Origin: Streptomyces sp. SID9727
GTDB lineage: Bacteria > Actinomycetota > Actinomycetes > Streptomycetales > Streptomycetaceae
Assembly (NCBI RefSeq): GCF_010550605.1
Contig: NZ_JAAGNI010000233.1
Span: 1-64,000 of the forward strand
Length of the DNA stretch: 64,000 nt
Direction of reading: 5' to 3'
Both the position numbers and the translations under genes were made by a program. Below, one piece after another: positions 8,537 to 61,448 of the stretch (position 1 is the first letter of the stretch; each line of letters starts with the position of its first letter). The notes beneath the pieces are model-generated. The model made no database searches, was not told where the DNA came from, and was given only the letters and a program-made list of their open reading frames with translations.

Positions 8537-9448
8537 TCAGAGTGCGCGGGCGCGCTGGAAGACGGTGTCGAGCCGTTCGCGCAGCCCAGGGTCGGGAATC
8601 AACTCCATGGCGCGGATGAAGTCGTCCTGGGCGGCGGCCAGCTGGGGCCGCTGTTGGTATTCGTGGTCGGCGAGGACGGAGGCTGCAGCCCCCGTGGCGC
8701 CGGGTCTGGCCCGTACGGCGTAGATCATCGTGAGGGAGAAGGCGAAACAGGCGTGGAGGAACCCGTACGCGGGCCGCTGGGTGCCGCGCCATGGGGAGAA
8801 GTACGTCTCGTTGTCGGGGAACGTGATGTGGAGCGCGGCGAGGGCGTCGTTGAGCCAGTTGTGGGCGGCTTCGTGGACGAGGTCGCGACCCAGCACGGCA
8901 GCGTTACCGGTGTGGTCGGTGAAGACGGTCGCCGGCAGACGGGTGATGGCGAAGCTGCGCAGGGTCTGGTCGGGACGGCGCCGGCCGGTCAGGCAGATCA
9001 CGGCGGCGTGCGCTGCGACGAGAGCGTCGAGGCGGGTGGCGGTGATGTGGCCGAAGGCATCGTCGGCCAGTACGGCCAGGGACTCGGCGGCGCAGGTCGT
9101 GTCGGGTCCGAGGACGTGGTACGGGGTGTCGGAGTGCGGGCCCCAAGTCATCTCGTCCTCGTTCGGGGCGATCACGATGCGCGGGCCGAGGCGGGAGGAG
9201 TGGGCCAGACGGGATAGAGCGGGCCCGGCGGTGTCGCGGTACCAGTCGAGTGTGGTCGTGTCGCGGCGGCGTGCGGCGTTCTCGGCGCCTTCGAGCCGGT
9301 GGTGCGCCAGGGCGTAGGCCAGGGGCAGCGCCTCGTCGTCCGGCGGCGAGTCGGAACCGGGGTGGAGCAGGGCCAGGGTGGCGGCGGTGCGTTCGCGGCG
9401 GTGGGTGGTGATGGCGTCCAGGTCGAGGGCGGCGTCGATGTCGTTCAT
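8537..9448 (-). CDS. HExxH-type putative peptide beta-hydroxylase
   Basis: A 303-aa protein whose C-terminal half contains H192-E-A-A-H196 (DLVHEAAHNW), the signature of the alpha-ketoglutarate HExxH family that hydroxylates beta-carbons in RiPP precursors. The usual companions are present: a radical SAM/SPASM gene and a small precursor gene directly upstream. AGGAG lies 9 nt before the ATG. It is the last gene of the operon. A plain zinc protease reading is less likely because the flanking sequence lacks known protease motifs and the context is RiPP-like. The assignment rests on motif, size and neighbours. Confidence 0.7.
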   Translation of the reverse strand: MNDIDAALDLDAITTHRRERTAATLALLHPGSDSPPDDEALPLAYALAHHRLEGAENAARRRDTTTLDWYRDTAGPALSRLAHSSRLGPRIVIAPNEDEMTWGPHSDTPYHVLGPDTTCAAESLAVLADDAFGHITATRLDALVAAHAAVICLTGRRRPDQTLRSFAITRLPATVFTDHTGNAAVLGRDLVHEAAHNWLNDALAALHITFPDNETYFSPWRGTQRPAYGFLHACFAFSLTMIYAVRARPGATGAAASVLADHEYQQRPQLAAAQDDFIRAMELIPDPGLRERLDTVFQRARAL

Positions 9449-9544
9449 GTCGGGAGGCTCCTAGGCGGCGGGCCCCGATGCCGGGCCCTGGGGGCGCCGG
9501 CACCGGGGTCTGAGAGGAGGGGCAGGCCGGTTGGCCCAGCCCGA

Positions 9545-9715
9545 TCAGTTGGCGCTGTCCGCCTCCGGGGTGGCCGGCGCCGATTCGGCGTCGGCGGGGG
9601 CGCTCCAGGCGTCAGCGGAGACGCTGGAGGTGTGGGCGGTCAGGCGCACGGTGCCGCCGTCGTCCCGCAGCTGGTCCACCGCGGCGAGAAACTCGCCGCA
9701 CACATCGGTCGTCAT
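9545..9715 (-). CDS. Candidate RiPP precursor peptide (56 aa)
   Basis: Starts ATG 9715 after a near-perfect GGAGGAAGAG ribosome-binding site and ends TGA 9547-9545. The product begins MTTDVCGEFLAAVDQLRDD, a plausible helical leader, continues GGTVRLTAHTSSVSADAWS, and ends in a low-complexity Ala/Pro/Asp/Ser tail (EADSAN). The only aromatic residue in the C-terminal half is W37, a possible site for radical SAM crosslinking or hydroxylation. It lies between the 2-oxoglutarate oxygenase and the HExxH hydroxylase, behind a 10-bp hairpin. It matches no precursor family I know. The strong RBS and position support expression. Confidence 0.6.
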   Translation of the reverse strand: MTTDVCGEFLAAVDQLRDDGGTVRLTAHTSSVSADAWSAPADAESAPATPEADSAN

Positions 9716-9750
9716 CTCTTCCTCCGTAGGTTGCAGGGTCTGGTCCGGGT

Positions 9751-9773
9751 GCAGCCCGCCAGGGGCGGGCTGC
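9751..9773. terminator. 10-bp hairpin ahead of the precursor gene
   Basis: GCAGCCCGCC-AGG-GGCGGGCTGC, perfect stem, 3-nt loop, between the oxygenase stop (9796) and the precursor start (9715). There is no T-run, so it may be a partial terminator or an mRNA-processing/stability element. Confidence 0.55.
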
Positions 9774-9795
9774 GTATGGGCGGGTGCATAGCCGG

Positions 9796-10509
9796 TCAGG
9801 CTTCGCTAATCAGCCAGCTGATGAACTTGCGTTCGCGCCCCGAGTGGACCGGCTCGGTGCCGTGGGTTACCTGGGATCCGTAGAGCAGCGCAGTGCCGGG
9901 GGCGGGGTGCACGCTCCAGCGGGTGCGCGGCATGGTGCGGAACCAGTCAGCGGAGTGGTCGGCGCCGTCGTGCGTGAACGCCATGGCGGGGTGGTAGCCG
10001 TCGTCGCCGTGCTGGTCGCTCCACAGGGCGGGGTGGGAGGTGGTTTCGACGAAGAACTCCCCGCCGTCGTCGGCGTGGTCGAGGACCACGCTGATCCCGG
10101 CGAGCTGACGGACGGGGTCGGTGGGGGCGGGGGCGATGCCGTCGACGTGCGGGGTGATGTGTTGTCCGGGCGCGTACTCGACGTACATCCATTCGCGGCA
10201 GGAGGTCAAGGCGGGCAGGGCTCGGCGCAGTGCGGGCATCGACCGTTCGACGGCGTGGGCGAGGATCTTGGCCGCGGTCTCGGGGGGCGGATGGATTTCG
10301 AGGCGGCCGGCGGGCTCGTAGACGGCCATGGCCTGCTCGCTGCTGTGTCCGGGGATGGAGTGCAGGGTGGTGGTGCGCTCGGTGTCGAATCGGCGCGGGC
10401 CGTCCTCGCCGAGGGCGTCATCCACGACGGTGATCAGGGTGGTGATCTCGTCGGGGGTGAGGAAGTTCTCGATGCTGGAGACCGTGAGTGTCTCCGCTAT
10501 GTGGATCAT
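9796..10509 (-). CDS. 2-oxoglutarate/Fe(II)-dependent oxygenase
   Basis: A 237-aa protein with the prolyl-4-hydroxylase-like facial triad H121-x-D123 (ITPHVDG) and H216 (VTHGTEPV), followed by a basic residue around R227 for 2-oxoglutarate binding. The family hydroxylates proteins, peptides or small molecules. ATG 10509 follows GGGAGGCACG and overlaps the radical SAM stop by ATGA. With the HExxH protein this gives two putative hydroxylases around one precursor gene. The peptide substrate is inferred from context. Confidence 0.8.
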   Translation of the reverse strand: MIHIAETLTVSSIENFLTPDEITTLITVVDDALGEDGPRRFDTERTTTLHSIPGHSSEQAMAVYEPAGRLEIHPPPETAAKILAHAVERSMPALRRALPALTSCREWMYVEYAPGQHITPHVDGIAPAPTDPVRQLAGISVVLDHADDGGEFFVETTSHPALWSDQHGDDGYHPAMAFTHDGADHSADWFRTMPRTRWSVHPAPGTALLYGSQVTHGTEPVHSGRERKFISWLISEA

Positions 10510-12386
10510 CGTGCCTCCCGGGTGGGTCGGGGCGGGCGGAGGGCGCAGGCGCATCCGGTGGCCGTCGGGGTGTGGCGGGCCACGTGCGTGAGCGTGTGCA
10601 CGGCCTGGTCGAGGCCGGTGAAGTAGTCGGCCCATGTGCTGCCGGGGGCCGGGGTGAGGGTCAGGTTGAGGACCGGGTGTCGGCGACCGGTCTCGGCGCT
10701 GGTGAGGTCGCTGCGGACGGCGTCCGCGGTGACGGTGGCGGGCAGGTAGCCATCGGCAGCGGCGAGGGTGTGGCACAGGCGGGCGGCGAGCGTGGCGTAC
10801 TCGGCGCGGGTACGCGGCAGCAGGCCGACGCGGAACGGGGACGGTGCCAGGCCGGTGCCGGTGTGGGCGTGCCCCTGGCAGGAGTCGTACGTGACGGCCT
10901 TCCAGCTGCGGGTGATCGTGTCGACCAGCGGCCACACCCGGTCCTCGACGCCCTCGCGCCACTGGGGGTGGCGCGGGTCGAGGTCGTCGGCCGCGTGCTC
11001 GCCGGGCAGGCCGGCCGTGTTGATGTTGCCGTGGTCGCTGGCCAGGAGCCGGGCCGGGGTACGAGGGGCTGCCGGGTCGTCCCAGCGAGCGAGGAAGGCG
11101 TCGACGTCGTCCATGACGTTCGGGTCGACGGGCCGCCAGTGGGCTCTGCGACAGTGGGCGCCGGCCGGGTGGTCGGGGGCGGCGAGCAGGTGAGCCATGC
11201 CGTCGGTGAGGCGGCCTCGGTGGTCGCAATACGCGTCATCGCTGCCGGTCGCCTTCAGCATGCGCCAGCGGGTCGCCGTGCATCCGCCGCCGCAGACCGT
11301 CCGGTACGGGCAGGAGACGCACTTGGTCATGAGCTCCCGGCCGGCGGTGAGCTGCGGGTTGGCGTGCTGGGCCTCGGTGATGTCCGCCTCGCTGCGGGCG
11401 GCGGCGAGCGGCAGCAGGTGAGCCTGGGGCCAGGGCAGTTCGTCGCAGGAGCCGAGGCGGCCGTCGGGGTAGGCGGTGAAGACGTGGGAGCACTTGTGGG
11501 CGGCGAAGTGGCAGTGGGCGGTGTCCAGGCCCTTGAGGCGGCGGATCGTGGCGACGGCCGGGTCGAGTTTGATCCGGCGGAAGTGGCCGGCGTCGATCCA
11601 GCGGGCCGTGGCGTCGAGGACGAAGGCGGCGTACTGCGCGGGAGTGATCGCCCAGGCCGGGCCGTCAGCCCCGACCGCACGGGCCTGGAGGCGGCGGCTG
11701 GGGCTGGTACGGCGGCCGGTGGCCTGGAGTCGCGTGGTGACGGTGGTGTCGAAGGCGGGCAGGAGGTGCACGGCGCGGACCGCGTCGAAGTCGGCGATGT
11801 GGTCGATGACTTCCGCAGCGCGGCCCAGGACGGCGGGGGTGACCACGGTGACGATGCCGCACGTGCGGTTGCGCTCGGCGAGCAGGTTCAGCGCGCTCAC
11901 GATGTGGGGGTAGATCGCGGTGCCGTCGTAGCCGACGCGCCAGGAGTTGCCCTGCTCGTCGCCGTCCATGGAGATGCCGATGTGCAGGCCCGGGTAGTGG
12001 GCGTCGAACAGGTCGAGCCACTCGCCGTCCAGCCGCACGCCGTTGGTCTGCAGGTGAACGCGGTGGACCGTGGGCTGGGCGGCGAGTTCGTCGAGGAGCG
12101 CGGCCATGGCGTCCTTGCCGACGGTCAGGGGCTCCCCGCCGTGCAGTTCGATCGCGAGAGGCCGCTCACCGAAGATCTGGCCCAGGCGGCGTATGTGTGC
12201 GGGCGTGATCTGGGCGCCGCCGGGGGCGAGCTTGCGTTTCTCGAAGCAGTACAGACAGTCGACGTCGCAGGTCTCGCCGCGCAGTTTGAGTACGACGGAG
12301 ACCGCCGCGGTGTGGTCGGTGTCCTCCAGGGGCCGCCACACGTCGGTGCCGACGGTCGTCGTGGGGGTGGTGAGCGTGCTGGGCAT
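10506..12386 (-). CDS. Radical SAM/SPASM peptide-modifying enzyme with C-terminal extension
   Basis: A 626-aa protein. Residues ~25-230 form a radical SAM core with C40-x3-C44-x2-C47 (CDVDCLYC) and the HGGEP motif at 82-86. A SPASM-type cysteine set follows (C299, C314, C356, C359, C365, C369, C387), binding auxiliary clusters. The architecture resembles FxsB-like enzymes that crosslink or otherwise modify RiPP precursors. Residues ~410-626 are an extra domain I do not recognise, containing VTYDSCQGHAHTG. ATG 12386 follows GGGGAGGA. It is coupled by ATGA to the oxygenase gene. The likely substrate is the 56-aa peptide. Confidence 0.85.
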   Translation of the reverse strand: MPSTLTTPTTTVGTDVWRPLEDTDHTAAVSVVLKLRGETCDVDCLYCFEKRKLAPGGAQITPAHIRRLGQIFGERPLAIELHGGEPLTVGKDAMAALLDELAAQPTVHRVHLQTNGVRLDGEWLDLFDAHYPGLHIGISMDGDEQGNSWRVGYDGTAIYPHIVSALNLLAERNRTCGIVTVVTPAVLGRAAEVIDHIADFDAVRAVHLLPAFDTTVTTRLQATGRRTSPSRRLQARAVGADGPAWAITPAQYAAFVLDATARWIDAGHFRRIKLDPAVATIRRLKGLDTAHCHFAAHKCSHVFTAYPDGRLGSCDELPWPQAHLLPLAAARSEADITEAQHANPQLTAGRELMTKCVSCPYRTVCGGGCTATRWRMLKATGSDDAYCDHRGRLTDGMAHLLAAPDHPAGAHCRRAHWRPVDPNVMDDVDAFLARWDDPAAPRTPARLLASDHGNINTAGLPGEHAADDLDPRHPQWREGVEDRVWPLVDTITRSWKAVTYDSCQGHAHTGTGLAPSPFRVGLLPRTRAEYATLAARLCHTLAAADGYLPATVTADAVRSDLTSAETGRRHPVLNLTLTPAPGSTWADYFTGLDQAVHTLTHVARHTPTATGCACALRPPRPTREAR

Positions 12387-12420: not shown

Positions 12421-13326
12421 TCAGCTGTGGGCACGGCGTGCGGCGGCCTGCTGCCAGGCGCGCATCCGGCCGTCGGAGAGCGGGACGCGGTCGTCGCCGC
12501 GGCGTAGGAACCAGCCGTCGCTGTAGCGCTGCGGCAGCCAGCCGAAGCCGTTGAGCCCCGCCTCGTCGACCGGTTCGGGCGCGGCGTCGGTGGGCCAGAG
12601 CTCCAGCAGGGCGTCGGCGAGTCGAGCCTGGACGGAGGCGAAGAAGGGACTGTGCGCGGCGGCGCTCACCCAGCGAGGCTCAGGCAGCGCCGGCACCGGC
12701 GTGAACGGGGCTTCGTTGCTGCTGAGCAGGCTGGGCAGCCACTTCTCTCCGAGCAGTGCGGCGTCGGCGGCGACGGTCTCGGCCTGCGCGACAACGCGGG
12801 CGAGCTGGTCCCAGACCAGGTCGGCGTGCGGATACAGGCCCGCCTGCGCCAGACCGAGCAGGTCCTCGGCCAGGCTCGCCGCCGCCTCGCACCGGTCCGC
12901 GAGCGCCCACCGCTGGTAGGCGGCCCGCTGCTCGGGCTCCAAGACTGCGGCTCGGTCCGGTGCTTGGGCGAGCGGACGGGCCGTACGCAGCAGCGTGAGG
13001 TCGCTCAGCCGGGACCGGACCGCGCGGAACATCTGGATGTCGTCGCGGGTGACGGTGAACTCGTCAAGGAGGGTGCGCCAGTCGTGCACGGTGCTCCTGC
13101 TCACCGCCCGTACGTCGACGCGGATGCCGTGGATGAGGCGGGAGCCCGGCTCGGCGACGGGTTCCGGGGTGATCAGGAGCAGGTCCACATCGCTGCGCTG
13201 GTGGACCAGGCCCTCGGCGAGCGCGCCCACCAGCCACACGTCGGCGTCGGCGTACTCGTCGGCCAGGCATGTGGAAGCCTGTTCGGCGACCTCGAGTCGA
13301 GTCTTCAGCCACGGCGTGTCCGTCAT
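12421..13326 (-). CDS. Nucleotidyltransferase-fold protein
   Basis: A 301-aa protein with an N-terminal polymerase-beta-like nucleotidyltransferase motif, GALAEGLVHQRSDVDLLLI at ~33-51, where the DxD pair would bind metal. The rest is helical and resembles the C-terminal substrate domain of aminoglycoside-type or streptomycin-type nucleotidyltransferases. The first G of the usual GS motif is followed by A rather than S, so activity is not certain. The ATG overlaps the upstream dehydrogenase stop (ATGA). In this operon it could adenylylate a small molecule made by the neighbouring enzymes. Confidence 0.65.
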   Translation of the reverse strand: MTDTPWLKTRLEVAEQASTCLADEYADADVWLVGALAEGLVHQRSDVDLLLITPEPVAEPGSRLIHGIRVDVRAVSRSTVHDWRTLLDEFTVTRDDIQMFRAVRSRLSDLTLLRTARPLAQAPDRAAVLEPEQRAAYQRWALADRCEAAASLAEDLLGLAQAGLYPHADLVWDQLARVVAQAETVAADAALLGEKWLPSLLSSNEAPFTPVPALPEPRWVSAAAHSPFFASVQARLADALLELWPTDAAPEPVDEAGLNGFGWLPQRYSDGWFLRRGDDRVPLSDGRMRAWQQAAARRAHS

Positions 13327-14267
13327 GAGGCGCTCCTTGCTGCACCGGCCAGGACACCGGCGGCGGTGGTGGCGACCCAGCGGTCGAGGAGGTCTCGGAC
13401 ATCGTGCCGCTGGGCACCGATGTGCGGGGTGGCGATCAGGTTCAGCGGACCGGGCATGTTCTCCCCGGGCCACAACGGCAGATCGGCTTCCTCCACGGGG
13501 TCGAGGGCGAGGCCACCAAGGCCGCCGTCGGCGAGCGCGCGCAGGCAGGCGGGGAGGTCGAGCGTGCCGAGGCGACCGACACAGAGCAGCAGCGGATGCC
13601 GCTCTCGTGCCGCGTCGAGGAACGCGGCCCCGAACGCACCCCTGTTCTCTTCGGTGAGCGGGAGCGCCACGACGTGGACGTCTGCCCACGCGGGCAGTTC
13701 GCTGGCGGGCCGTGAGGGCAGGGTGTCCGGTAAGCCGCGGCGGGCCGCGAAGGCGATCTCGGCGACGTGTGGGGCGAGGGCCTTCGCGCCGGCCCGGCCG
13801 ACCGGGCCGGCGCCCCAAATCGCCGCCCTCGTCCGGGAGAGAGGCGGAGCGAGGCAGTGCTGCTTCGCGTGCTGGCCCTGGAGCAGGGCGGCGTGCCCGT
13901 ACGGGATCCGGCGGGCGAGTGCGAGGAGAGCGGCCAGGGCCCATTCGGCGACGGCGTCGGCAGCCGGCTCCGGGTTGCGGTGCACGGTGACGCCGCGTGC
14001 GGCCAGGGCGGCAACGTCGATGCCGTCCAGGCCCGACCCGGCCCGGATCACATGCCGAAGCCTCGGCCACTCGGCCAGCCGTGTGGCGTCCAGCTGGTGC
14101 CCCGACCGCAGAACCAGCACCTCGGCTCGGGAGGCGAGTTCCGGGTCCGCCGGGGCGAGTGCGGTGATCTCCCTGATCAGGCAGCCGGGCAGATGCCGCT
14201 GCAGCAGGACGGTGTCGGCCGCGCCGCGCACGCTCACGAGCAGCGGGGCCTCGCGCACCGCGCTCAC
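13323..14267 (-). CDS. D-2-hydroxyacid dehydrogenase family protein
   Basis: A 314-aa NAD(P)-dependent dehydrogenase. The Rossmann motif GAGPVG lies at ~150-155 (AAIWGAGPVGRAG). The catalytic set appears as R in CVGRLG, E in PVEEADLP and H in ATPHIG. The family reduces 2-oxoacids to D-2-hydroxyacids. GTG 14267 overlaps the upstream TGA (GTGA). With a PEP-mutase-like enzyme in the same operon, its substrate could be a 2-oxoacid derived from phosphoenolpyruvate or oxaloacetate; that is a hypothesis only. Confidence 0.8.
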   Translation of the reverse strand: MSAVREAPLLVSVRGAADTVLLQRHLPGCLIREITALAPADPELASRAEVLVLRSGHQLDATRLAEWPRLRHVIRAGSGLDGIDVAALAARGVTVHRNPEPAADAVAEWALAALLALARRIPYGHAALLQGQHAKQHCLAPPLSRTRAAIWGAGPVGRAGAKALAPHVAEIAFAARRGLPDTLPSRPASELPAWADVHVVALPLTEENRGAFGAAFLDAARERHPLLLCVGRLGTLDLPACLRALADGGLGGLALDPVEEADLPLWPGENMPGPLNLIATPHIGAQRHDVRDLLDRWVATTAAGVLAGAARSAS

Positions 14268-14959
14268 TGATCCGCCCCCGCGGCAGGAGCGGTGTAGCGG
14301 CCGAAGGCCAGGTCGCCGGCACCGGTGATGACTTCCAGCGGGGCAGGAGCGCGGAAGTAGTCCTCGCAGGCTGCCTTGACGCCGGGCAGCCCGTTCCATG
14401 CCGCCGGGTTCGCCTCCAGGTCGGCGTAGTCGTCGACGATCAGCGTGCCGCCGGGGGCCATGCGCGGCACGCACGCGGTCAGGCAGGTGTGGATGGAGTC
14501 GTAGTAGTCGCCGTCCAGGTAGGCGAAGGCGATCTGGGCGGGGAGCTGGTCGGGGAGGGTATCGGCGAACCAGCCGGGGTGGATCACGGGCGGGGTGCGG
14601 CCCCAGCGGTCGTGGAGGGCGAGAACCTGGTCCGGCTCGGCGTGCAGGTAGCCGGCCTCGAACAGGTCGGGGTCCTGCGCTCCGCGTTCGGGCAGGCCCT
14701 GGAAGGAGTCGTAGACGTGGACCGGGCGCCGGCGCTGTCCGGTGGCGTCCAGCACGGCGCGCATCCACAACGCCATGGCGCCCCTGTAGCAGCCGAGTTC
14801 GATCACGGCGCCGGGCACGTCGCGGGCGCCGATCTGTTCGAGTTCGGTGCGGATGGCGGGCAGGCGGTCGGCATCCACGGTGTCGTCGTGGTGTTCGAGG
14901 AGCCAGTCGTGCAGTTCGGCGAGGCTCAGCAGGGCGGGAGGACGGGGGCCCATGGTCAC
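14264..14959 (-). CDS. TylF/MycF-like class I methyltransferase
   Basis: About 231 aa. The SAM-binding motif VIELGCYRGAMALWMRAVLD, the segment VYDSFQGLP and the acidic metal-site region AYLDGDYYDS and IVDDYA match the TylF/MycF family of Mg-dependent O-methyltransferases acting on sugars and related natural-product intermediates. GTG 14959 overlaps the NUDIX stop (GTGA); ATG 14953 is an alternative two codons later. The substrate is unknown. It shares the operon with the RiPP enzymes. Confidence 0.75.
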   Translation of the reverse strand: MTMGPRPPALLSLAELHDWLLEHHDDTVDADRLPAIRTELEQIGARDVPGAVIELGCYRGAMALWMRAVLDATGQRRRPVHVYDSFQGLPERGAQDPDLFEAGYLHAEPDQVLALHDRWGRTPPVIHPGWFADTLPDQLPAQIAFAYLDGDYYDSIHTCLTACVPRMAPGGTLIVDDYADLEANPAAWNGLPGVKAACEDYFRAPAPLEVITGAGDLAFGRYTAPAAGADQ

Positions 14960-15426
14960 CACCGGTCCACGAGGACGTCGCGGTCGGCCGGGGCCCCGGC
15001 GAGCGCGTCGAGCACTTGCTGGTTGACCCGCGGCAACAGGTACTTGTCGCTCAGCTCCTCCAACGGCACCCACTCGAAGCCGACCTGGATCGGGTCGGGC
15101 GGGTCGGACTTGCGCGGGGTGGTGTCCTCGTCGAGGAGCTCGGCGAGGAAGTTGTGCTGGGTCTTGTGGACGGTGCCGAACTCGTCGTTGTACTGCTCGG
15201 GGACGTACTCGACGACGAACAGCAGCCGCGAGGCGCGGACCCGCAGACCGGTCTCCTCCTTGACCTTGCGTACAACCGCGTCGCGCAGCGGCTCGCCTTC
15301 TATCGCCTTGCCGCCGGGCAGGTTGTAGTGGAATCCGGAGTGGTCGTCGTACGACATGAGCAGAATGCGGCCCTGGTGGACGATCGCAGCCTTGACCGAC
15401 ACGCTGATGCGGGGCAGAGATGTCAT
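14956..15426 (-). CDS. NUDIX hydrolase
   Basis: A 156-aa single-domain NUDIX protein. The NUDIX box reads PGGKAIEGEPLRDAVVRKVK followed by EETG, with K in place of the first E of REUxEE but with the metal-binding EE intact. Such proteins hydrolyse nucleoside diphosphate derivatives. ATG 15426 lies 95 bp after the PEP-mutase-like gene and is coupled to the methyltransferase downstream. It is one of ten NUDIX domains in the window. Confidence 0.85.
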   Translation of the reverse strand: MTSLPRISVSVKAAIVHQGRILLMSYDDHSGFHYNLPGGKAIEGEPLRDAVVRKVKEETGLRVRASRLLFVVEYVPEQYNDEFGTVHKTQHNFLAELLDEDTTPRKSDPPDPIQVGFEWVPLEELSDKYLLPRVNQQVLDALAGAPADRDVLVDRW

Positions 15427-15521: not shown

Positions 15522-16397
15522 CTACAGGCAGGCGCGGGCGGTCGGGTCGGCGATCTGGAGGAGGTCGGCTACGTCGGACAGTGGCGTCCCGCCGGCGGTG
15601 AAGGAGCCGGTGGTCTGGAAGGAGGCTGCGACGCTGCGCATCGCGGCGAGCGCGGCGCGCGAGAGCTGGTTGGCGTAGATGGCCAGGGCGAATCCGGCGG
15701 TGCCGAGTTCGCCCGGAGACAGGTGCGCGAACGCGGTGGGTACGGTCACCAGCGGCACCGCGCCCGGCCAGGCGGCGGCCGTGGCCAGGGCCTGCTGCCC
15801 GGTGGGGTCCTTGGAGTGGATGAGCACCGCGTCCGCGCCACACGCCGCGTACGCTTCGGCCCGCCGCACTGCCTCGGTCACGCTTGCTCCGCAGATCAGG
15901 GCCTCGGTCCGCGCGATCAGGGCGACCCCGGTTCCGACGGCGTCGCGCATCGCGGCGATCTGTTCGGTGACCGTCTCGATGTCAGCGAGCGCCTGGCTGC
16001 GGTGCAGAGCAAAGGAGTTGACCTTGGGGTAGGCGCTGTCCTCCAGGCAGAGGGCCGCGGCCCCGGCGCTGGTGAGGTCGCCGGCGAACCGGCGGGCCGC
16101 GGCCGGGGTGCCGCCGGCGTTGTCGATGTCGACGATCACCGGCAGCGCCGCTGTCCGAGTGAGGGCGAGGACGGTGTCGGCCAGGTCGCGCGGCCCCAGC
16201 ACGTTCTCGTCCGGCAGCCCAAGGGCCGTGGAGACCTCCAGGCCGGACACCCACAGGGCGTCGAAGCCGGTCTCCACGGCGACCTTGGCGGCCACCGCGT
16301 TCGCGGCGCCGATCGCCCGCAGCGGGCGGCGGGCGCCCACTGCGGTAGCCAGCCGCGTCACGAGCGAGGCTATGCCGGCCTCGGTGGAAGTGGTCAC
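15522..16397 (-). CDS. PEP mutase/isocitrate lyase superfamily protein with altered EDK motif
   Basis: A 291-aa protein. It aligns with PEP mutase across the substrate loop (FDALWVSGLEVSTALGLPDE) and the metal site VDIDNAGG at ~89-96. The diagnostic EDKx5NS motif appears as E119-D120-S121-AYPKV-N127-S128 (LEDSAYPKVNSFA): everything is kept except the catalytic-loop Lys, replaced by Ser. True PEP mutases make phosphonopyruvate; the change suggests another reaction in the superfamily, such as a lyase or hydrolase of 2-oxoacids. It overlaps its upstream neighbour by 4 nt. Confidence 0.75.
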   Translation of the reverse strand: MTTSTEAGIASLVTRLATAVGARRPLRAIGAANAVAAKVAVETGFDALWVSGLEVSTALGLPDENVLGPRDLADTVLALTRTAALPVIVDIDNAGGTPAAARRFAGDLTSAGAAALCLEDSAYPKVNSFALHRSQALADIETVTEQIAAMRDAVGTGVALIARTEALICGASVTEAVRRAEAYAACGADAVLIHSKDPTGQQALATAAAWPGAVPLVTVPTAFAHLSPGELGTAGFALAIYANQLSRAALAAMRSVAASFQTTGSFTAGGTPLSDVADLLQIADPTARACL

Positions 16398-17059
16398 GAC
16401 GCGGCTCCTTCACGGTCGGGCAGCAGGCCGTACTGGGCCAGGGCCTGCCAGGCGGTGTGCAGAACGGTGGCGCGGTCCTGCGCGGCGTCGATCCGGACGA
16501 CCTTTCCCAGAGCGGGAAACGCAGCCGGCACACCGGCCACGGACTGGTAGACCTCCCGGACCCTGGACTGGATATCCATGACATCCCAGTCGGGCCGAGT
16601 GGCGTCCCCGGATCGGTGGGCAGCACGTTCCATCGCGGTCTCAGGCGTGATGTCCAGGACGAACGTGAGATCGGGGACCAGGTGGAGCCGCTCGGTGAGT
16701 TGCGCGTACGTCTCCTTCGGGGCGCGGTCGTGCTTGACCATGAAGAAGGCCAGCTCGGACAGCAGCCACCGGTCGGCGATGACCGGGCGGGCCGGCAGGC
16801 TGGGGGCGATCAGCCGGTCGGCGGTGGCTTGCTTGTCCGCGGCGAGCGCGGCCAGGTAGCAGTCCCGATTCTCCCCAGTGGGCTGGTACTTGCCCTCCAC
16901 CAGGTCCAGCGCGACGTCCGGGTCGAGGAAGTTGGTGGTCAGCACGGCGAGCGGAGTGACGCGGAACAGGCCCTCGAAGAGGCGGAACAGGCCCTTGCGC
17001 AGCGTTGTCTTGCCCGTGCCGTCCAGGCCCTCGACGACGATGAACGGATAGCGGTCCAC
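16394..17059 (-). CDS. dTMP-kinase-like P-loop kinase
   Basis: A 221-aa protein with Walker A G11-LDGTGKTT-19 (VVEGLDGTGKTT), a DRW motif near 94 (VIADRWLLSEL) and a LID-like Arg segment (TAMERAAHRSGDATR), matching the thymidylate-kinase superfamily. A housekeeping Tmk would normally sit elsewhere, so this copy may phosphorylate a nucleotide-like pathway intermediate. GTG 17059 is chosen for its GGAG spacing and because the P-loop follows at once. It is 2 bp from the upstream gene. Confidence 0.75.
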   Translation of the reverse strand: MDRYPFIVVEGLDGTGKTTLRKGLFRLFEGLFRVTPLAVLTTNFLDPDVALDLVEGKYQPTGENRDCYLAALAADKQATADRLIAPSLPARPVIADRWLLSELAFFMVKHDRAPKETYAQLTERLHLVPDLTFVLDITPETAMERAAHRSGDATRPDWDVMDIQSRVREVYQSVAGVPAAFPALGKVVRIDAAQDRATVLHTAWQALAQYGLLPDREGAAS

Positions 17060-17061
17060 GC

Positions 17062-17799
17062 CTACTCCACCTGCCCGGCGCCGGTGCCCCCGGCGTACTT
17101 CGTGAACCGGCCACGCCACGGGATCGACGTCGACACGAGGTCGACCAGCCGCAGCTCGCCCAGCTCCTCCAGCAGCTCGGGAAGCCGGCTCTCGATGACG
17201 ATGCTCTCGGTGATCGCACGGCAATAGGCCATGCGCACGGCTTCGTCGGCCGCCGCGGTGCGCAGCTGCTCGGCGAGAATCCGCTGGGCAGTGCCGAGCG
17301 CCACGATGCTCGTCGCGCTCTGCAGCGTCTCCAGGGCGATCTCGGAATCGACGGGCTGGAGGGTGGTGTGGTGGACGCCGAGGTGGCGGATGACAGCGAA
17401 CGCGCCCACCCACCAGGCCGACGCAGCGCACACAGCGGCCACCGCAGCACGGACTGCCGGATCGGTGACGCCCTCGAGCAGGGTGTCCGCGATTTCGTCA
17501 GCGCTCGCGGCCAAGGGGTTCGTTCCGGCGTTGGCCGTGCCGTGTGCGGCCGGCAGGCGCAGCCAGTGCTGAAGGCCGGCCTGGTCGACCACGGCCTCGG
17601 CCGCCGGTTCGGCGAGCGCGGCGGGACGCGCGGTCAGCACGCTCGGCTGGGTCTGCGCGAACAAGGTGACGTCAGGGGGCGGGGTGAGAAGCTGTTCGCG
17701 CAGCTGCGGCAGGTGCAGGGCCAGGCGCTGGACCTGTAGTCCGTCGGCGAGGGCTTCCCAGGACCCGTACAGGTTCGGGCTGGGTGGGGAGAGGGGCAC
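17062..17799 (-). CDS. Unknown protein heading the first biosynthetic operon
   Basis: A 245-aa protein without recognised motifs. It begins VPLSPPSPNLYGSWEALADG, then is mostly Ala/Leu-rich helix, with a conserved-looking segment SAWWVGAFAVIRHLGVHHTT near 150 and a basic C-terminal region IPWRGRFTKYAGG. GTG 17799 is preferred because GAAGGAG lies 5 nt upstream; an ATG at 17856 would add 19 Pro-rich residues. It is followed after 2 bp by the kinase gene, so it belongs to the operon. Possibly a regulatory or scaffold protein; no function assigned. Confidence 0.65.
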   Translation of the reverse strand: MPLSPPSPNLYGSWEALADGLQVQRLALHLPQLREQLLTPPPDVTLFAQTQPSVLTARPAALAEPAAEAVVDQAGLQHWLRLPAAHGTANAGTNPLAASADEIADTLLEGVTDPAVRAAVAAVCAASAWWVGAFAVIRHLGVHHTTLQPVDSEIALETLQSATSIVALGTAQRILAEQLRTAAADEAVRMAYCRAITESIVIESRLPELLEELGELRLVDLVSTSIPWRGRFTKYAGGTGAGQVE

Positions 17800-17871
17800 A
17801 CGGGCTCCTTCGTCGGGCGGGGGCGGAAGGTCACCGAGAGATGGTGCGGGCGGCATGCTGACTGCCCGTGA

Positions 17872-18437: not shown

Positions 18438-18655
18438 CACAGGCACTAACCCTCCAGGTGGCACGCGAGCGTCCACGGCAGGGGTGACGTACCGCAACCG
18501 GGGCGCCACCGTCCGCTGGGTGAGCTTCGATAATGACGGCCAACTACCCTTTCGACAAGCAGTCCTTGAGGAAAGTCATTCCTCTCGGGGACTTGGCATA
18601 TTCACGAACTGGCCCAGGCGCTACTCTGGCGTCGATATTGACGAGGAGGTGGGGT

Positions 18656-19513
18656 ATGCCGGTCGAGCCGACGCCGCGGCGCCGGCGCCTGGGCGCTGAG
18701 CTCCGGCGCATCCGTGAAGCCCTGGGCTGGACGCAGGAGGAGGCGGCTGCCCGTCTCGGTTACCGGTCCTTCTCCACGGTAAGCAAGATCGAGAAGGGGG
18801 TGCAGGGCCTCAAGATTCAGCAACTCCCGCACTTTTTCGAGGTATACGAGATCACCGACCCCGCACTGCGCGAGGAACTACGCGACCTGGCCCGCCGGGC
18901 CGGCGAAGCCGACTGGACTCAGCGCTACCAGGGAGTTGTCGACGACCCGCTCGCCGACTACCTCTCCTTGGTGGAGACGGCCAGCAGCCTGTTCGTCTTC
19001 AACCCCGCCGCCATCCACGGACTCCTTCAGACCCCGGAGTACGCCAGAGCCGTGACCGAGGGCAGCCGGGCTTGGAAGACTCCGGAGGACATCGATGGCT
19101 TCGTGTCCATGCGCCAGGAGCACCAGGACAACATGCTGGAGCGCGACCCGCCGCTGAAGATCTGGGCAGTCCTTCCCGAAGGGCTCCTGCGTCAGGAGGT
19201 CGGTGGCCGACCGGTCATGCGCGCACAGATAGAGCATCTGATTAACCTCGCCCGCACGGACCCCAACATCACCATCCAGGTCCTGCCGCACAAGGTCGGG
19301 GCGCACGCCGGGATGGACGGACCGTTCATGCTCATGTCCTTCCCCACCGGGCGGGACTCGGTGTGCATCGAGTCCATGCGGGCCTCGCTCCACCTCAACC
19401 AGCCGGAGACGGTGGACGTGTACCGGACCACCAGCGACCTACTCAAATCTGACGCTCTCTCCCAGAAGGCGTCGCTGCCACTTCTCACCACCATCGCCAA
19501 GGACCTTGCATGA
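18656..19513 (+). CDS. XRE regulator with DUF5753 domain (WhiJ-like)
   Basis: A 285-aa protein. The N-terminal helix-turn-helix spans ~10-70 (LGAELRRIREALGWTQEEAA, then STVSKIEKGVQG), followed by the DUF5753 domain (~100-280; SSLFVFNPAAIHGLLQTPEY and LPEGLLRQEVGG). This is the WhiJ-like architecture of Streptomyces developmental and antibiotic regulators. GAGGAGGTGGGGT precedes ATG 18656. It is coupled by ATGA to a DUF397 gene, its usual partner, and is probably repressed or de-repressed through that small protein. Confidence 0.9.
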   Translation: MPVEPTPRRRRLGAELRRIREALGWTQEEAAARLGYRSFSTVSKIEKGVQGLKIQQLPHFFEVYEITDPALREELRDLARRAGEADWTQRYQGVVDDPLADYLSLVETASSLFVFNPAAIHGLLQTPEYARAVTEGSRAWKTPEDIDGFVSMRQEHQDNMLERDPPLKIWAVLPEGLLRQEVGGRPVMRAQIEHLINLARTDPNITIQVLPHKVGAHAGMDGPFMLMSFPTGRDSVCIESMRASLHLNQPETVDVYRTTSDLLKSDALSQKASLPLLTTIAKDLA

Positions 19514-19967: not shown

Positions 19968-21146
19968 TTACTGGGCCGGGGCGAAGGCGGTGAAGTGCGT
20001 CGGCGGATGGTCGATGGGCAGATCGGGGTCCCAGGCCGTGAGGATCTGGGCGCTGCACACGAACAGGCCGTCGGGGAGCTGATCGAGCGGGTACCACGCC
20101 CAGTCGCCGACGCTCTCCTCCGGCTGTGTGGCCGGCTGCCCTTGCCAGGCGTGGACGAGCGCCCCGACGGTGACTCGGAGAACGCCTTCGACATGGTCGA
20201 CGAGCGTCCCGAGCAGTTCCACGTCGCCCGTCTGAGCGAGCAGGCCGGTCTCCTCAGCGAGTTCACGGACGACCGCGTCCTCGAAGGATTCCCCGGTGGC
20301 TTCCACGCTGCCGCCGGGCAGTTCGAGGGTGCCGCGGCGGTGGCGGCCCAGCAGGATGCCCTGCTCGCTGAGCAGGATCGCACCGACGCCGACGGCTGCG
20401 TGGGCGGCCGGGGCTCGGGTGCTGCGAGCGCGGCTGGAGACGCGAGCAGGCCGGTCGGGAAGGCGTCGGGCGCGGATGAGCTGCTGAACGACCGAGGCGT
20501 CGTCGTCCGGGTGCGGGAAGAGGTCGAGGGCTTCGACGCGGAATCCGTACTCGGTGAGTAGGTCCTCCCACAGCTGCGGTGCCAGGACCCACATCTGTGT
20601 CGGTAGCGGTGGGTCGTCGCGCAGCAGGATCATCTGCTCGCGCGGTGCCACTGCCGTCGACGGTCCGCGGCCGTGCAGGTCGGTGTGCAGGAGCGAGAGG
20701 ATCAGCGGAGCGCCGGGACGCAGGCCGGCGCGCAGCGCAGGCAGCGAGCGGTGTGGGTCGATGAAGGCGAGCGTCCCGATCGCGTACGCAGCGTCGAACG
20801 GCTCAGTTGTAGTGAGGTACTCGGCCACGTCAGCCTGTACGAACTCCACACCGTCCACGCCTGCATGGGTGCTGAAGGCGCGTTCATGCTGGGTCGGGGA
20901 CAGCTCAAGGCCGGTGACGCGCGCCCCGTGTGCCTGAGCGAGGTGGACGGCGTGGTGGCCGGCTCCGGAGCCGATGTCCAGGACGCGGCGGCCCGAGACG
21001 TCCCCGAGGACCTCTGCTCCGGGTCCGATTCCTTCCCAGGGCGTCCAGTTCAGCCGCTCGGGGACGGGCGGGGTGTAAGCACGGGCGAGTTGGCGCTGGC
21101 CGTAGATCTGCCAGGCCCGGGTGTTGGTGGACTCCTCAGTGGGCAC
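19968..21146 (-). CDS. Methyltransferase-NUDIX fusion protein
   Basis: A 392-aa fusion. Residues 1-~235 form a class I SAM methyltransferase (VLDIGSGAGHHAVHLA, then VEFVQADVAEYL). Residues ~250-390 form a NUDIX domain whose box reads GGSVEATGESFEDAVVRELA followed by EETG. GTG 21146 follows CAGGAGGCAAAC. It is the last gene of the long minus-strand run that begins at the lanthipeptide cluster. The pairing of methylation with pyrophosphohydrolysis in one chain is unusual; the substrate is unknown. Confidence 0.82.
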   Translation of the reverse strand: MPTEESTNTRAWQIYGQRQLARAYTPPVPERLNWTPWEGIGPGAEVLGDVSGRRVLDIGSGAGHHAVHLAQAHGARVTGLELSPTQHERAFSTHAGVDGVEFVQADVAEYLTTTEPFDAAYAIGTLAFIDPHRSLPALRAGLRPGAPLILSLLHTDLHGRGPSTAVAPREQMILLRDDPPLPTQMWVLAPQLWEDLLTEYGFRVEALDLFPHPDDDASVVQQLIRARRLPDRPARVSSRARSTRAPAAHAAVGVGAILLSEQGILLGRHRRGTLELPGGSVEATGESFEDAVVRELAEETGLLAQTGDVELLGTLVDHVEGVLRVTVGALVHAWQGQPATQPEESVGDWAWYPLDQLPDGLFVCSAQILTAWDPDLPIDHPPTHFTAFAPAQ

Positions 21147-21175
21147 GTTTGCCTCCTGGTGGGGGTGTTCCGGGT

Positions 21176-22072
21176 TCAGGTGTGGGTGACCAGGTAGGCG
21201 GGGCCCTCGCCGCGCCGTGCTCGCTCGATGGCGTCGAGGCGGGCGAAGGCGCGTGGCGCCATCAGTTCCTGCCAGGTCGCGAGGTCATGGACGGCCCACA
21301 GGTCGTGTTCGGCCGGATCGAGCCGGATCCGGCCGAGTTGCTCGGAGGTCAGCTGTCCGCCGTCGAAGATGAGCCCGACCTTGTTGAGCGGCATCCGGGG
21401 TCCGGCGTGCAGGAAGTGCGTCAGCAGGAGGGGCGGCGTGTCGGGAGCGAGTTCGAGTCCGGTCTCCTCGACCGCCTCACGCCGGGCGGTCTGCAGGGGG
21501 TCCTCACCCGAGGCGTCCAGGTTGCCGCCGGGGAACTGCCAGAGTCTTGAGCCGTAGACCGAGCGGAGCTGTACCGGCCGGTCGTGCTTGTCGCGGATGT
21601 AGAGGCAGCCGTACACCGTGTGGTGGGGGACGGTCTGCGCGTACTGCTCGGCCGTCATCGGCATGGGGCGGCCGGGCCGGGCAGGGCGGTGATCGAAGGC
21701 GATGGCGAGTACACCGAGGGCTTCCTTGCTCGGTGGGTAGATCGAGCGGAGGTTGGTGATCAGCTCGCTGGTCGGCCCGTCCGGGTCGATGCGCGCGGTG
21801 TCCTCCGAGCGGAGGAGGTCCTCGAAGGAGGCGTACGGGGTGATCCGCTGCACGATGACGTCGAGTTCCCGCCCGGTGTCCCGGTCGTGGAAGACGACCG
21901 TGTCGCCGACGGCGATGTCGCGCTTGCTCGGGGATGCCACCCTTACTTCGATCGTCTTACGCCCCGCTTCCACTTGGCGGTAGTACCGCCCGAGCAGGTG
22001 CATGTGGTGCTCCGGTGCTGCGTCCCGGGCCGCCGGGACGGCTGGGATCGCCTGCTGGGTGTCGTCAGGCAC
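21176..22072 (-). CDS. ASCH domain-NUDIX fusion protein
   Basis: A 298-aa protein. Residues ~24-125 match the ASCH/PUA-like fold (LLGRYYRQVEAGRKTIEVRV, then VGDTVVFHDRDTGREL), which binds RNA or modified nucleosides. Residues ~145-290 carry a NUDIX domain with box GGNLDASGEDPLQTARREAV followed by EETG. GTG 22072 is chosen because ACGGAGG lies 6 nt upstream; the longer ATG start at 22093 includes that RBS. A combined ASCH and NUDIX protein suggests action on a nucleotide or RNA-derived ligand, which is inference. Confidence 0.82.
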   Translation of the reverse strand: MPDDTQQAIPAVPAARDAAPEHHMHLLGRYYRQVEAGRKTIEVRVASPSKRDIAVGDTVVFHDRDTGRELDVIVQRITPYASFEDLLRSEDTARIDPDGPTSELITNLRSIYPPSKEALGVLAIAFDHRPARPGRPMPMTAEQYAQTVPHHTVYGCLYIRDKHDRPVQLRSVYGSRLWQFPGGNLDASGEDPLQTARREAVEETGLELAPDTPPLLLTHFLHAGPRMPLNKVGLIFDGGQLTSEQLGRIRLDPAEHDLWAVHDLATWQELMAPRAFARLDAIERARRGEGPAYLVTHT

Positions 22073-22199
22073 AGGTGCCTCCGTTCGATGCATTTCGTCC
22101 GTCCGGTCGTAGTCCGCGGCCGGACAGGGGCGTTGGCCGCGCTACTGCGAGTGCGGATCGGGCGTGATGGGAGAGGAAGTGGACGAGTCCGCCGGCGGG

Positions 22200-23465
22200 T
22201 CAGGGCAGTTCGATCGGTCCGTAGCGCGCGTGCGGCTCCTGCCGCATCAGCGCGTCGTACCGGTCTCCCGCCGAGAAGTGCCAGAACTCGGTTCCGTAGT
22301 TCGTAAAGCCCCCTCCTTCCATGGCGTTGAGCAGCACCGTGCGGTGGTGGCGTGCCTGGTCGCTGAGGTTCGGGGCGTGGGTGAAGCAGGCCCCGTCGCT
22401 CTCCTCCGGGGAGGCGTTGACGCGGGTGCCGAGGTCGAGTTCGTGGCCGTCCTGGTCGACGAGGGTCACGTCCACGGCGGCGCCGGCGGAGTGCGGCGCG
22501 ATGTCCGGCGGCGAGACGTACCGGCTGGTGGCCTCGTGCAGCTGCTCGGGTGTCCAGTTGTGGTGGCCGGCAGCCAGTTGGTCGCGGTATTCGGTGAAGT
22601 AGCGCTGCTGGAGCGACAGCGGCCGGTAGCCCTCGACGAACAGCAGGTCGGTGCCGGCGGGTAGGAGGGAGCGGGCGTGCTTCAGCCGGGCGAGGACGCC
22701 TTCTCGGACGTGGGCGAACGCGCCCTGCGGGTCCTGCTTGCGGGGGTCGACGCGGAAGTCGTGGTCGCGTACGTCGACGAGTGGTTCTCGGCAGTCGCGC
22801 ACCGGGATCGCCGCGACGTGCGGATCGGACATCAGCACCAGGTGCATGGAGTCTCCCTGCGATGGCTTGGGCTGCGGCGGCGGGGCGGGGGTGGCGGCGG
22901 TCAGATCGGCTTCGCGCACGATTCTGGCAACGGTGTCCTGCAGGGCGCTGTCGGCCGGGATCACGGTCTCCAGGCCGCCGGGCAGAAGGTCCAACTTGCG
23001 GTACCAGGCGGTGAGGTGGGTGTCGGTGACCTGTTCCAGGTACGCGGCGTCGGCCTTCGAGGCGTGCCGGGCCAGCGTCGCCTCCAGGGGCACGTCCAGG
23101 TAGTAGCAGGCCGAGATGCCGCGGTGGTTGCGCACCAGGGACGTGATCATGTGGCTGTAGCGGTCGGCGTACAGGATCCCTTCGAGTACGACGTGGAAGC
23201 CGGCGTCCAGGGCATGACGGGCGATCCTGCCGAGCAGGGTGATGTTGGCGCCGCCGGTGGTGTCGTGCTCGCGCAGGACGTTCCGGCGGATCACGTCCTG
23301 GCCGACGATGGCGACGCCGCGGCCGTAGTGATCGCGTAGGCTCTGCGCGACGCTCGACTTGCCCGAGGCCGAGTTCCCGCGGATCACTACGAGGCGGGTG
23401 TCGGAACGTCCGGCCGCCGCCGCGGCGGGCACGTGACGGGGCGCGCTGGTCGGGTTGCCGGTCAT
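22200..23465 (-). CDS. P-loop kinase fused to VanX-type D-Ala-D-Ala dipeptidase
   Basis: A 421-aa fusion. Residues ~20-190 are an AAA_33/zeta-toxin-like kinase with Walker A GNSASGKSS. Residues ~205-421 resemble M15D dipeptidases: SAGAAVDVTLVD corresponds to the SxHxxGxAxD zinc region and GTEFWHF to the ExWWH region. There is no stop or frameshift between the parts. An internal ATG (aa ~207, before HLVLMSDP) has GGGAGA upstream and could allow separate translation of the peptidase. The ATG at 23465 overlaps its upstream neighbour (ATGA). A role in self-protection of the producer is possible but unproven. Confidence 0.78.
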   Translation of the reverse strand: MTGNPTSAPRHVPAAAAAGRSDTRLVVIRGNSASGKSSVAQSLRDHYGRGVAIVGQDVIRRNVLREHDTTGGANITLLGRIARHALDAGFHVVLEGILYADRYSHMITSLVRNHRGISACYYLDVPLEATLARHASKADAAYLEQVTDTHLTAWYRKLDLLPGGLETVIPADSALQDTVARIVREADLTAATPAPPPQPKPSQGDSMHLVLMSDPHVAAIPVRDCREPLVDVRDHDFRVDPRKQDPQGAFAHVREGVLARLKHARSLLPAGTDLLFVEGYRPLSLQQRYFTEYRDQLAAGHHNWTPEQLHEATSRYVSPPDIAPHSAGAAVDVTLVDQDGHELDLGTRVNASPEESDGACFTHAPNLSDQARHHRTVLLNAMEGGGFTNYGTEFWHFSAGDRYDALMRQEPHARYGPIELP

Positions 23466-24937: not shown

Positions 24938-24994
24938 GGGGCTACCTCAGAAGGAAGGACCGTGGGAGGAGTCGAGGCGGTGCGGGTCGTCGGA

Positions 24995-27482: not shown

Positions 27483-27588
27483 GGAATTCCTTCCGGTGCT
27501 GGTGGGGCGGAGTCGGACGTGCAGAGAGGTGTCGAGGGCGGCCTTGCGTCTCTGCCTGGCGGACCGGGGCCTCGCGTGCTCGGGGTGA

Positions 27589-29529: not shown

Positions 29530-29762
29530 CGTTCCCCCTAGGACGTTCGCGTCGGCAGAGTCGTGAGGTCTAACGACGCGGCTGCGATATCGAACACACG
29601 TCATTCGGTCGTGCTGCGGAGCCCGCTATCTCCTGCATCCGGCGACCCCGTGGACGCGAGATCCCTGGTCTGGCTTGGAGCGGCTGCGGGCAGGAAATGG
29701 CCGAAACGCCGATGCCCACCGCATTACCGGTGTCGGTCGGTGAGCCGGCCGGGTCCACGCCC

Positions 29763-30875: not shown

Positions 30876-30879
30876 CGGC

Positions 30880-32922: not shown

Positions 32923-32950
32923 GGTCGGGGAACTCCTTGAAGGGGCGGGG

Positions 32951-36057: not shown

Positions 36058-36094
36058 CAGTGCTTTCCTCACCTTCTGGGTGTGACGGGCGGGG

Positions 36095-61447: not shown

Positions 61448-61448
61448 G

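Follow-up and report, generated by a model that had tools for sequence, protein, structure and literature searches.

A conserved TAHTS...W precursor peptide with radical SAM and hydroxylase enzymes in Streptomyces, and its possible link to phosphonate chemistry through a divergent PEP-mutase-like enzyme

The locus described here lies in a stretch of 64,000 nucleotides from Streptomyces sp. SID9727 (contig NZ_JAAGNI010000233.1, positions 1 to 64,000; hereafter the window), where a minus-strand series of genes runs from a radical S-adenosylmethionine (SAM) enzyme with a SPASM region through a 2-oxoglutarate (2OG)/Fe(II) oxygenase and a small open reading frame (ORF) to an HExxH protein, with predicted lengths of 626, 237, 56 and 303 residues, respectively. 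The radical SAM and oxygenase genes overlap by 4 bases, and a Shine-Dalgarno-like sequence, CGGAGGAAGAG, is located immediately 5' of the ATG of the small ORF. A preliminary description of the window had given the position and start signal of this 56-codon gene correctly, and had also read the right motifs in its neighbours, which fall at C40xxxC44xxC47 in the radical SAM enzyme, H121-x-D123 with H216 in the oxygenase and H192-E193-x-x-H196 in the HExxH protein. The four genes are as follows, with the precursor of a ribosomally synthesised and post-translationally modified peptide (RiPP) being the predicted role of the small ORF.

8537..9448, minus strand: alpha-ketoglutarate/Fe HExxH-type peptide beta-hydroxylase (TIGR04267, 55.5 bits; ligands in 49/49)
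9545..9715, minus strand: predicted RiPP precursor peptide, 56 residues, with leader-like F9-L-x-A-V-x-x-L-R, core T26-A-H28-T29-S30-x6-W37 and variable tail (profile conservation, HExxH adjacency, Shine-Dalgarno-like sequence)
9796..10509, minus strand: 2OG/Fe(II) oxygenase, probable Thr29 oxygenase (PF13640; ligands in 50/50; Thr29 covariation)
10506..12386, minus strand: radical SAM/SPASM enzyme (residues 27-405) with a C-terminal domain (residues 408-626, TYDSCQGH motif) (PF04055, TIGR04085)

The radical SAM protein served as the query for a set of 51 genome loci and 2 plasmid loci, 53 in all, to which the window and two distant clusters were added to give 56 sequences (L and G numbers are our own labels). 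Peptides were counted with a profile in which no residue is obligatory; an earlier pattern demanded T26, H28 and W37, its 52/52 for these residues therefore holds by construction and is not used, and another pattern restricted position 29 to Thr or Ser, a limit the residue-free profile does not share. With this profile, 55 peptides are found in 54 of the 56 sequences, L053 having two adjacent copies (11913-12322), and the stretches of the two sequences without a peptide (L019, L060) stop short of its position. All but two of the peptides (53/55) end at most 400 bases from the projected HExxH start, the others being those of the distant clusters L089, from another family of the class (TAHTSAVQAEVM), and L090, in the same-genus genome G024 (TAHSSAVSVKPW), which stand 4.1 and 8.7 kb before it. 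The L090 peptide was at first a weak profile match (0.007), and was accepted because it has an ATG, a Shine-Dalgarno-like sequence and a TAHSS...W core. In L031 the peptide is present with a Leu in its leader, and both plasmid records list the gene as 'hypothetical protein'.

A profile built from 24 peptides and run on whole genomes found a match in 24 of the 392 same-genus genomes, at one place each, and an HExxH homologue adjoins the match at every one of these places (24/24); several of these genomes also supplied loci, such that the two sets overlap. Across the phylum (396 genomes) the same profile matched the window's own genome alone, and the family is thus sparse outside its own group. 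A wider profile gave 11 matches at 0.01 in 394 genomes of the class, three of them strong (own, G1035, G115) and eight weak (E 0.001-0.009). A chance or non-coding ORF at 9545-9715 is ruled out by the conservation of the peptide and its adjacency to the HExxH gene. The preliminary description had proposed a RiPP precursor served by three tailoring enzymes and had looked to related loci for a conserved small frame at the same place; that frame is there in 54/56 sequences, and the contrary outcome, a small frame without conservation, is clearly not what is seen. Judged from these sequences, 9545-9715 is a conserved precursor gene, and we class the locus, where tailoring enzymes accompany a conserved small ORF that has a leader-like part and a core, as a new family of RiPP cluster. 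That the 56-residue peptide is the substrate of these enzymes is very likely. A search by title of the open-licence literature found no paper on TAHTS peptides.

Among 24 different peptides F9, T26, H28 and W37 are invariant, and L10, V13, L16, R17, R24, A27, T29 and S30 nearly so. In the full set Thr26 and His28 are kept in 55/55, and position 29 has 53 Thr against 2 Ser. Position 27 is Arg once (L063) and Met once, position 30 is Ala once (in one of the two L053 copies), position 31 is Asn in 20 and position 33 is Ala in 19, whereas the tail past Trp37 varies freely. Four synonymous codons are in use for Ala27, a sign of selection at the protein level. Trp37 had been singled out earlier as the obvious target of modification; it is indeed conserved in 54/55 peptides, but the idea is weakened by the Met that replaces it in L089, set against Thr26 and His28 in every peptide and against the covariation of Thr29 with the oxygenase described below.

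Both hydroxylases retain their expected ligands in all aligned proteins. The HExxH protein exceeds the cutoff of TIGR04267 (aKG-HExxH-type peptide beta-hydroxylase; 55.5 bits, cutoff 40), and H192, E193, H196, R225 and H232 are present in 49/49 aligned proteins, where R225 and H232 would, from the alignment with ChlH, be the conserved Arg and the third His. The stretch HExxH...SPWR..RP..G.LHA aligns with ChlH (8s5f), although this match is weak alone (E 0.013). Within the aKG-HExxH family, hydroxylation takes place at Asp and His once a cyclophane has been installed, or at Gln, and backbone cleavage is possible as well (PMC12636437). The 2OG oxygenase scores 30.0 bits against PF13640 (cutoff 27) and has H121, D123 and H216 in 50/50 aligned proteins. 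Two classes of hydroxylase on one peptide had been called unusual in the preliminary description, yet the biphenomycin (bpm) cluster provides a precedent, with BpmG and BpmH as the predicted pair (PMC12257519).

The presence of the 2OG oxygenase is mirrored at a single core position. Thr29 is found in 52/52 clusters having both peptide and oxygenase, and Ser29 in 2/2 clusters lacking the oxygenase, L013 (a Kitasatospora cathayae plasmid) and L090; a naive Fisher test, which ignores relatedness, gives p = 7e-4. No 2OG oxygenase homologue was detected at 1e-3 in the whole G024 genome or the whole L013 plasmid. Other core positions do not track the enzyme, with Arg27 occurring in L063 and Asn31 and Ala33 in many oxygenase-bearing clusters. 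In addition, L013 and L090 are without the TylF-type O-methyltransferase found upstream in the window, which is confined to clusters that have the 2OG oxygenase. Because Thr29 follows the oxygenase in this way, we consider it the probable target of that enzyme, and the simplest model for the joint pattern would be that the 2OG enzyme oxidises Thr29 and TylF, where present, methylates the result.

The radical SAM protein scores above the PF04055 cutoff and at 34.5 bits against TIGR04085 (cutoff 27), which places it among the SPASM-domain enzymes. The cysteines of its CxxxCxxC motif are kept in 51-52 of 53 aligned proteins, whereas the auxiliary cysteines, counted as seven in the preliminary description, are eight (292, 299, 314, 356, 359, 365, 369 and 387), conserved in 52-53 of 53. 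In fold comparisons its predicted structure lies as near to ChlB (Z 31.2, 339 residues, 3.0 A) as to anSMEcpe (Z 31.8, 344 residues, 3.0 A), and ChlB is the protein's sole PDB sequence match at 0.001. The best NCBIfam score, sulfatase_rSAM at 105.7 bits, lies under the cutoff of 349.45, and among the best 25 of 51 families no named-maturase cutoff is reached (FxsB, TIGR04269, 75.1/370 bits; YhhB 87/445; AmcB 74.8/425; XyeB 56.8/450; GrrM/OscB 51.9/310), so that FxsB or another of these maturases was rejected as its identity. A viperin-like defence role was likewise rejected, given a pVip score of only 33.1 bits and the presence of SPASM cysteines and a precursor.

The C-terminal domain of this protein (window 10509-11165, residues 408-626) carries the TYDSCQGH-type motif and further conserved cysteines. 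Predicted alone (pLDDT 81.8), it has no Foldseek match in the PDB at E <= 0.001, and its profile gave 0 matches against the PDB; the best VIA match, TYW3-like 2qg3 (Z 6.9, 130 residues, 4.2 A), is below the reliable level of that tool. Such a lack of matches does not establish a new fold. We note that both distant clusters encode a Pfam-less protein (L089 3134-4021, L090 9644-10609; 37% identical), and that the radical SAM match there covers only the part preceding the C-terminal domain.

The span from 8537 to 12386 first proposed for the system is real, but it comprises the last 4 of 11 conserved genes and misses seven upstream genes, the PEP-mutase-like one included (PEP, phosphoenolpyruvate). 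These seven, together with a divergent regulator gene, are:

12421..13326, minus strand: nucleotidyltransferase (NTP_transf_2) (PF01909, 26.8 bits, cutoff 21; 26/26 type A loci)
13323..14267, minus strand: D-isomer 2-hydroxyacid dehydrogenase (PF02826/PF00389 above cutoff; 26/26 type A loci)
14264..14953, minus strand: TylF-type O-methyltransferase (PF05711, 108.1 bits; 25/26 type A loci)
14956..15426, minus strand: NUDIX protein (PF00293, 52.9 bits; 26/26 type A loci)
15522..16397, minus strand: PEP-mutase-like enzyme with EDSxYPKxNSF gate (PF13714, 138.6 bits; gate in 27/27)
16394..17059, minus strand: thymidylate-kinase-like (TMK-like) P-loop kinase (PF02223, 49.6 bits; 52/53 loci, all types)
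17062..17856, minus strand: conserved protein, first gene of the type A block (26/26 type A loci)
18533..19513, plus strand: divergent XRE/DUF5753 regulator (PF19054, PF13560)

Starts of the genes upstream of the radical SAM gene are inferred. The dehydrogenase has PDB matches of the reductase/dehydrogenase type; its query fragment (13389-14309) carried 14 extra residues and was 21 C-terminal residues short, which leaves the family assignment unaffected. The protein at 17062-17856 has no Pfam or NCBIfam match. The product of 18533-19513 is a possible regulator of the operon, and an HTH_31 gene is divergent in L017 too, where four conserved genes upstream of the block were annotated.

As in the window, these seven genes precede and adjoin the radical SAM gene in 26 of the 53 loci (type A), which come from Streptomyces, Kitasatospora, Actinomadura and one metagenome-assembled genome, with TylF absent from L013. 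Of the 27 remaining loci, 23 have the type B families of a protein of unknown function and a protein kinase. The type B order, annotated on L012, runs from an upstream NUDIX gene (24 loci) through a gene for a 209-residue protein (in L012), the 2OG oxygenase gene, the TMK-like gene and the protein kinase to the peptide, and in 22 loci a gene of an AlbA-type ATPase family comes after HExxH. In L032 and L055 the TylF, oxygenase and TMK-like genes are divergent, L032 having a CPT-like gene as well, and L090 has an APH-like gene. The TMK-like family is present in 54/56 sequences (not in L046 and L060), and types B and C share the peptide family and core enzymes without an EDS mutase nearby. This variety of types (kinase, PEP mutase, CPT-like, glycosyltransferase) around one conserved core suggests a scaffold that has repeatedly been given phosphorus-handling or other tailoring genes.

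Against the PDB, the PEP-mutase-like protein matches phosphonopyruvate hydrolase at 1.8e-45 and PEP mutases at 1e-43 and 2.5e-38, with other members at 1.1e-23 or worse, and in a tree PEP mutases, phosphonopyruvate hydrolases and the window clade are split from methylisocitrate-lyase-like sequences at 100/100. By both measures the enzyme is nearer to the first two than to the C-C lyases and belongs with their clade. Within its gate motif, EDS and YPKxNS are each kept in 27/27, as are WVSGLEVS and the Arg of (A/S)RTE. The gene recurs together with the dehydrogenase and the nucleotidyltransferase in 26/53 loci, and 2-hydroxyacid dehydrogenases are one usual way of driving phosphonopyruvate to phosphonolactate (PMC12871164). 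Parts of these kinds also make up the argolaphos cluster (PMC8976061).

A second architecture links the same peptide family to a PEP mutase. Nine genomes with mutase-less loci were searched (1e-15), yielding a PEP-mutase-like protein in L053, lyase-like proteins in three and none in five; the lyase-like three (L104-L106; EDQVNPKRCG, methylisocitrate-lyase-like) served as the outgroup of the tree. The L053 mutase (Streptomyces sp. NRRL F-6676) has EDKVFPKRNS, the canonical EDKX5NS, and lies approximately 12 kb upstream of the radical SAM gene, sharing its orientation, at a point 2.2 kb outside the start of the L053 locus, although its tree placement is unsure (long branch). Between the two genes are an aminotransferase, two TMK-like genes, PIG-L, an oxygenase, two NUDIX genes, a methyltransferase, a nucleotidyltransferase and a dehydrogenase, among genes of unknown function; past the radical SAM gene come the two TAHT peptides and then the HExxH gene. 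This cluster also has a homologue of the 17062-17856 protein, as judged by eye. On these grounds we lean towards carbon-phosphorus (C-P) chemistry in the window's cluster. A phosphonate cluster with a nonribosomal peptide synthetase has been reported from Streptomyces sp. I6 (PMC6346202), and is probably a different locus from L021, the basis being gene number versus position only.

The precursor, the enzyme families, the gene order, the covariation and the second architecture with its canonical-motif PEP mutase are read from the sequences themselves, and from them we infer each chemical step, the step order and the union of peptide and C-P unit in one molecule. We propose that the operon makes a RiPP from the 9545-9715 precursor, with leader-like FLxAVxxLR and core T-A-H-T-S-x6-W, and that the radical SAM/SPASM enzyme would crosslink the peptide at His28, the likeliest form being a three-residue cyclophane across His28-Thr-Ser/Ala30. 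The HExxH enzyme may then beta-hydroxylate His28 or a neighbour, the 2OG oxygenase would oxidise Thr29, with the methyl group, absent from Ser, as the probable site, and TylF would methylate the new hydroxyl. In subtype A, the PEP-mutase-like enzyme would convert PEP to phosphonopyruvate, which the dehydrogenase would pull on to phosphonolactate. Activation of phosphonolactate, and help in coupling it to the oxidised peptide or a fragment thereof, may come from the nucleotidyltransferase, NUDIX and TMK-like proteins. For this explanation as a whole, in which a new RiPP family has its His/Thr core oxidised and is joined in subtype A to phosphonate chemistry, we estimate a probability of roughly 0.5. 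The odds that the radical SAM enzyme forms a crosslink at His28 appear evenly balanced, those that peptide and C-P unit end up in one product fall slightly short of even, and the proposal of a new natural product class, a crosslinked, hydroxylated TAHTS...W peptide joined to phosphonate from a divergent EDS PEP mutase, is more tentative again.

Several observations weigh against this explanation. The window mutase fails the TIGR02320 (PepM) cutoff (202.4 versus 319.55 bits) and has EDSX5NS, as do all 27 such enzymes, in place of the PepM marker EDKX5NS; the tree leaves it undecided whether the window clade is closer to PEP mutases or to phosphonopyruvate hydrolases, and these three points together make another activity of the mutase possible. 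No PEP-mutase-like gene is found near the peptide in 27 of the 53 loci, and since NUDIX and TMK-like genes also occur in loci without the mutase, they are not specific to phosphonates. Phosphonate clusters are dominated by nucleotidyltransferases of PF12804 and PF01467 (PMC6697681), while that of the window belongs to PF01909. The argolaphos cluster contains NUDIX, NDK-like, PEP mutase, cd05299 dehydrogenase and cd05403 nucleotidyltransferase genes; however, the substrate of its dehydrogenase AlpK is hydroxymethylphosphonate rather than phosphonopyruvate, and the cluster includes a decarboxylase (PMC8976061), and the likeness is therefore one of parts rather than of pathway. Two oxygenase-less clusters carry the Thr29 argument, the loci are not independent of one another, the L013 core differs at further positions, and the oxygenase search there covered the plasmid only. 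Lastly, the annotated type A neighbours include no recognised protease or transporter.

The strongest competitor, somewhat less likely than the union of peptide and phosphonate, is a mutase that has taken on another activity, for instance that of a phosphonopyruvate hydrolase or a C-C lyase, in which case the peptide product would be oxidised and methylated, perhaps also phosphorylated or nucleotidylated, but would carry no C-P bond, the protein kinase doing the phosphorylation in type B. The replacement of EDK by EDS in 27/27 and the score below both the PEP mutase and the phosphonopyruvate hydrolase cutoffs fit such a change, as do the Pkinase gene of type B, the APH-like and CPT-like genes of L090 and L032 and the near-universal TMK-like kinase. 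This contrasts with the strict conservation of YPKxNS, WVSGLEVS and the Arg of (A/S)RTE and with the paired dehydrogenase, which suits phosphonolactate. Moreover, an aepX-annotated plasmid gene encodes EDTAFPKMNS, from which the Lys of EDK appears not to be strictly kept among annotated PEP mutases, with the proviso that annotation is not activity.

It is unlikely that the two halves of the operon represent separate pathways, with the RiPP made as described and the upstream genes making a small molecule of their own, phosphonate or not, such that only an operon or regulator is shared. Types B and C, which manage without an EDS mutase nearby, and the fact that no obvious phosphonate-peptide ligase was recognised in the window block are compatible with this arrangement, but not readily so the adjacency of the block to the radical SAM gene throughout type A, in several genera, or the accompaniment of the same peptide family by another PEP mutase in L053.

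Still less likely is an action of the radical SAM enzyme as an anaerobic sulfatase maturase, oxidising a Ser side chain without forming a crosslink, which is favoured by its best NCBIfam score, below the cutoff, and its best fold match, tied with ChlB. A crosslink at His28-Thr-Ser/Ala30 is preferred over Ser oxidation because none of the core Ser residues is invariant in the 55 peptides, the substitutions at positions 30, 31 and 33 being those given above; formylglycine on Ser30 is similarly weakened by the Ala30 of one L053 peptide. PQQ and mycofactocin are small molecules excised from a precursor peptide, and the improbable idea that the core here is feedstock for such a molecule, the remainder being degraded, would suit the short conserved stretch, the variable tail and the lack of a recognised transporter among the annotated type A neighbours, but not the Trp nine residues past His in 54/55, which indicates that selection spans more than a tripeptide.

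If demonstrated, a hybrid would be categorically new and would link the logic of RiPP and phosphonate natural products; no joint example was found in the open-licence literature among the matches listed. Published PepM mining demands EDKX5NS (PMC12723261, PMC6697681), which would drop all 27 EDS mutases, and motif-based searches for phosphonate producers would thus exclude these clusters. The set is compact, comprising one peptide, three oxidative enzymes and one mutase-dehydrogenase pair, and the covariation of Thr29 with the oxygenase offers a sharp site prediction from sequence alone.

Elsewhere in the window, a second RiPP cluster occupies 26187-36072 on the minus strand, with a Lant_dehydr_N LanB part, a LanC-like gene, a Lant_dehydr_C + PCMT ORF, a further PCMT gene and an ABC transporter ATPase, and looks like a class I lanthipeptide cluster with isoaspartate methyltransferases. 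Between the two clusters, 19968-26131 on the minus strand holds an unusual run of NUDIX genes (methyltransferase-NUDIX, ASCH-NUDIX, a triple-NUDIX protein and another NUDIX) with an AAA_33/peptidase M15 gene, a block that is kept downstream of the peptide cluster in L015. A gene resembling the R subunit of type I restriction enzymes (HSDR_N, SWI2/SNF2) lies at 58373-61477.

Of the known systems, prokaryotic viperins share a weak radical SAM match and a nucleotide-kinase-like neighbour with the window, which differs from them in its SPASM cluster cysteines and precursor peptide. The FxsB/FxSxx-COOH systems pair an actinobacterial SPASM radical SAM enzyme with a small precursor ending in a C-terminal FxSxx, whereas the core of the window peptide is internal (TAHTS...W) and its radical SAM enzyme scores below the FxsB cutoff. 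Clusters of the argolaphos/valinophos type have in common with the window a PEP mutase, a 2-hydroxyacid-type dehydrogenase, a nucleotidyltransferase and NUDIX (PMC8976061; PMC12871164), but the window adds a ribosomal precursor, a radical SAM enzyme and hydroxylases, has EDS rather than EDK, and has no decarboxylase recognised in the block. In the bpm cluster, the predicted JmjC-type hydroxylase BpmG and aKG-HExxH enzyme BpmH stand beside a B12-dependent radical SAM enzyme, and thus two kinds of alpha-ketoglutarate hydroxylase, one of them aKG-HExxH, likewise accompany a radical SAM enzyme on a RiPP (PMC12257519). The radical SAM enzyme of the window is instead SPASM-type and not B12-dependent, the core is another, and no MNIO or arginase is among the family matches of the operon. 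The triceptides of the ChlA-ChlB-ChlH type are similar in having a SPASM radical SAM enzyme, to whose ChlB the window model is close in fold, and an aKG-HExxH hydroxylase that aligns with ChlH. The radical SAM enzyme of the window nevertheless scores below all listed cutoffs of the named cyclophane maturases, and compared with the ChlA-ChlB-ChlH type the window has separate rather than fused genes, a different precursor, an additional 2OG oxygenase and genes of the phosphonate type.

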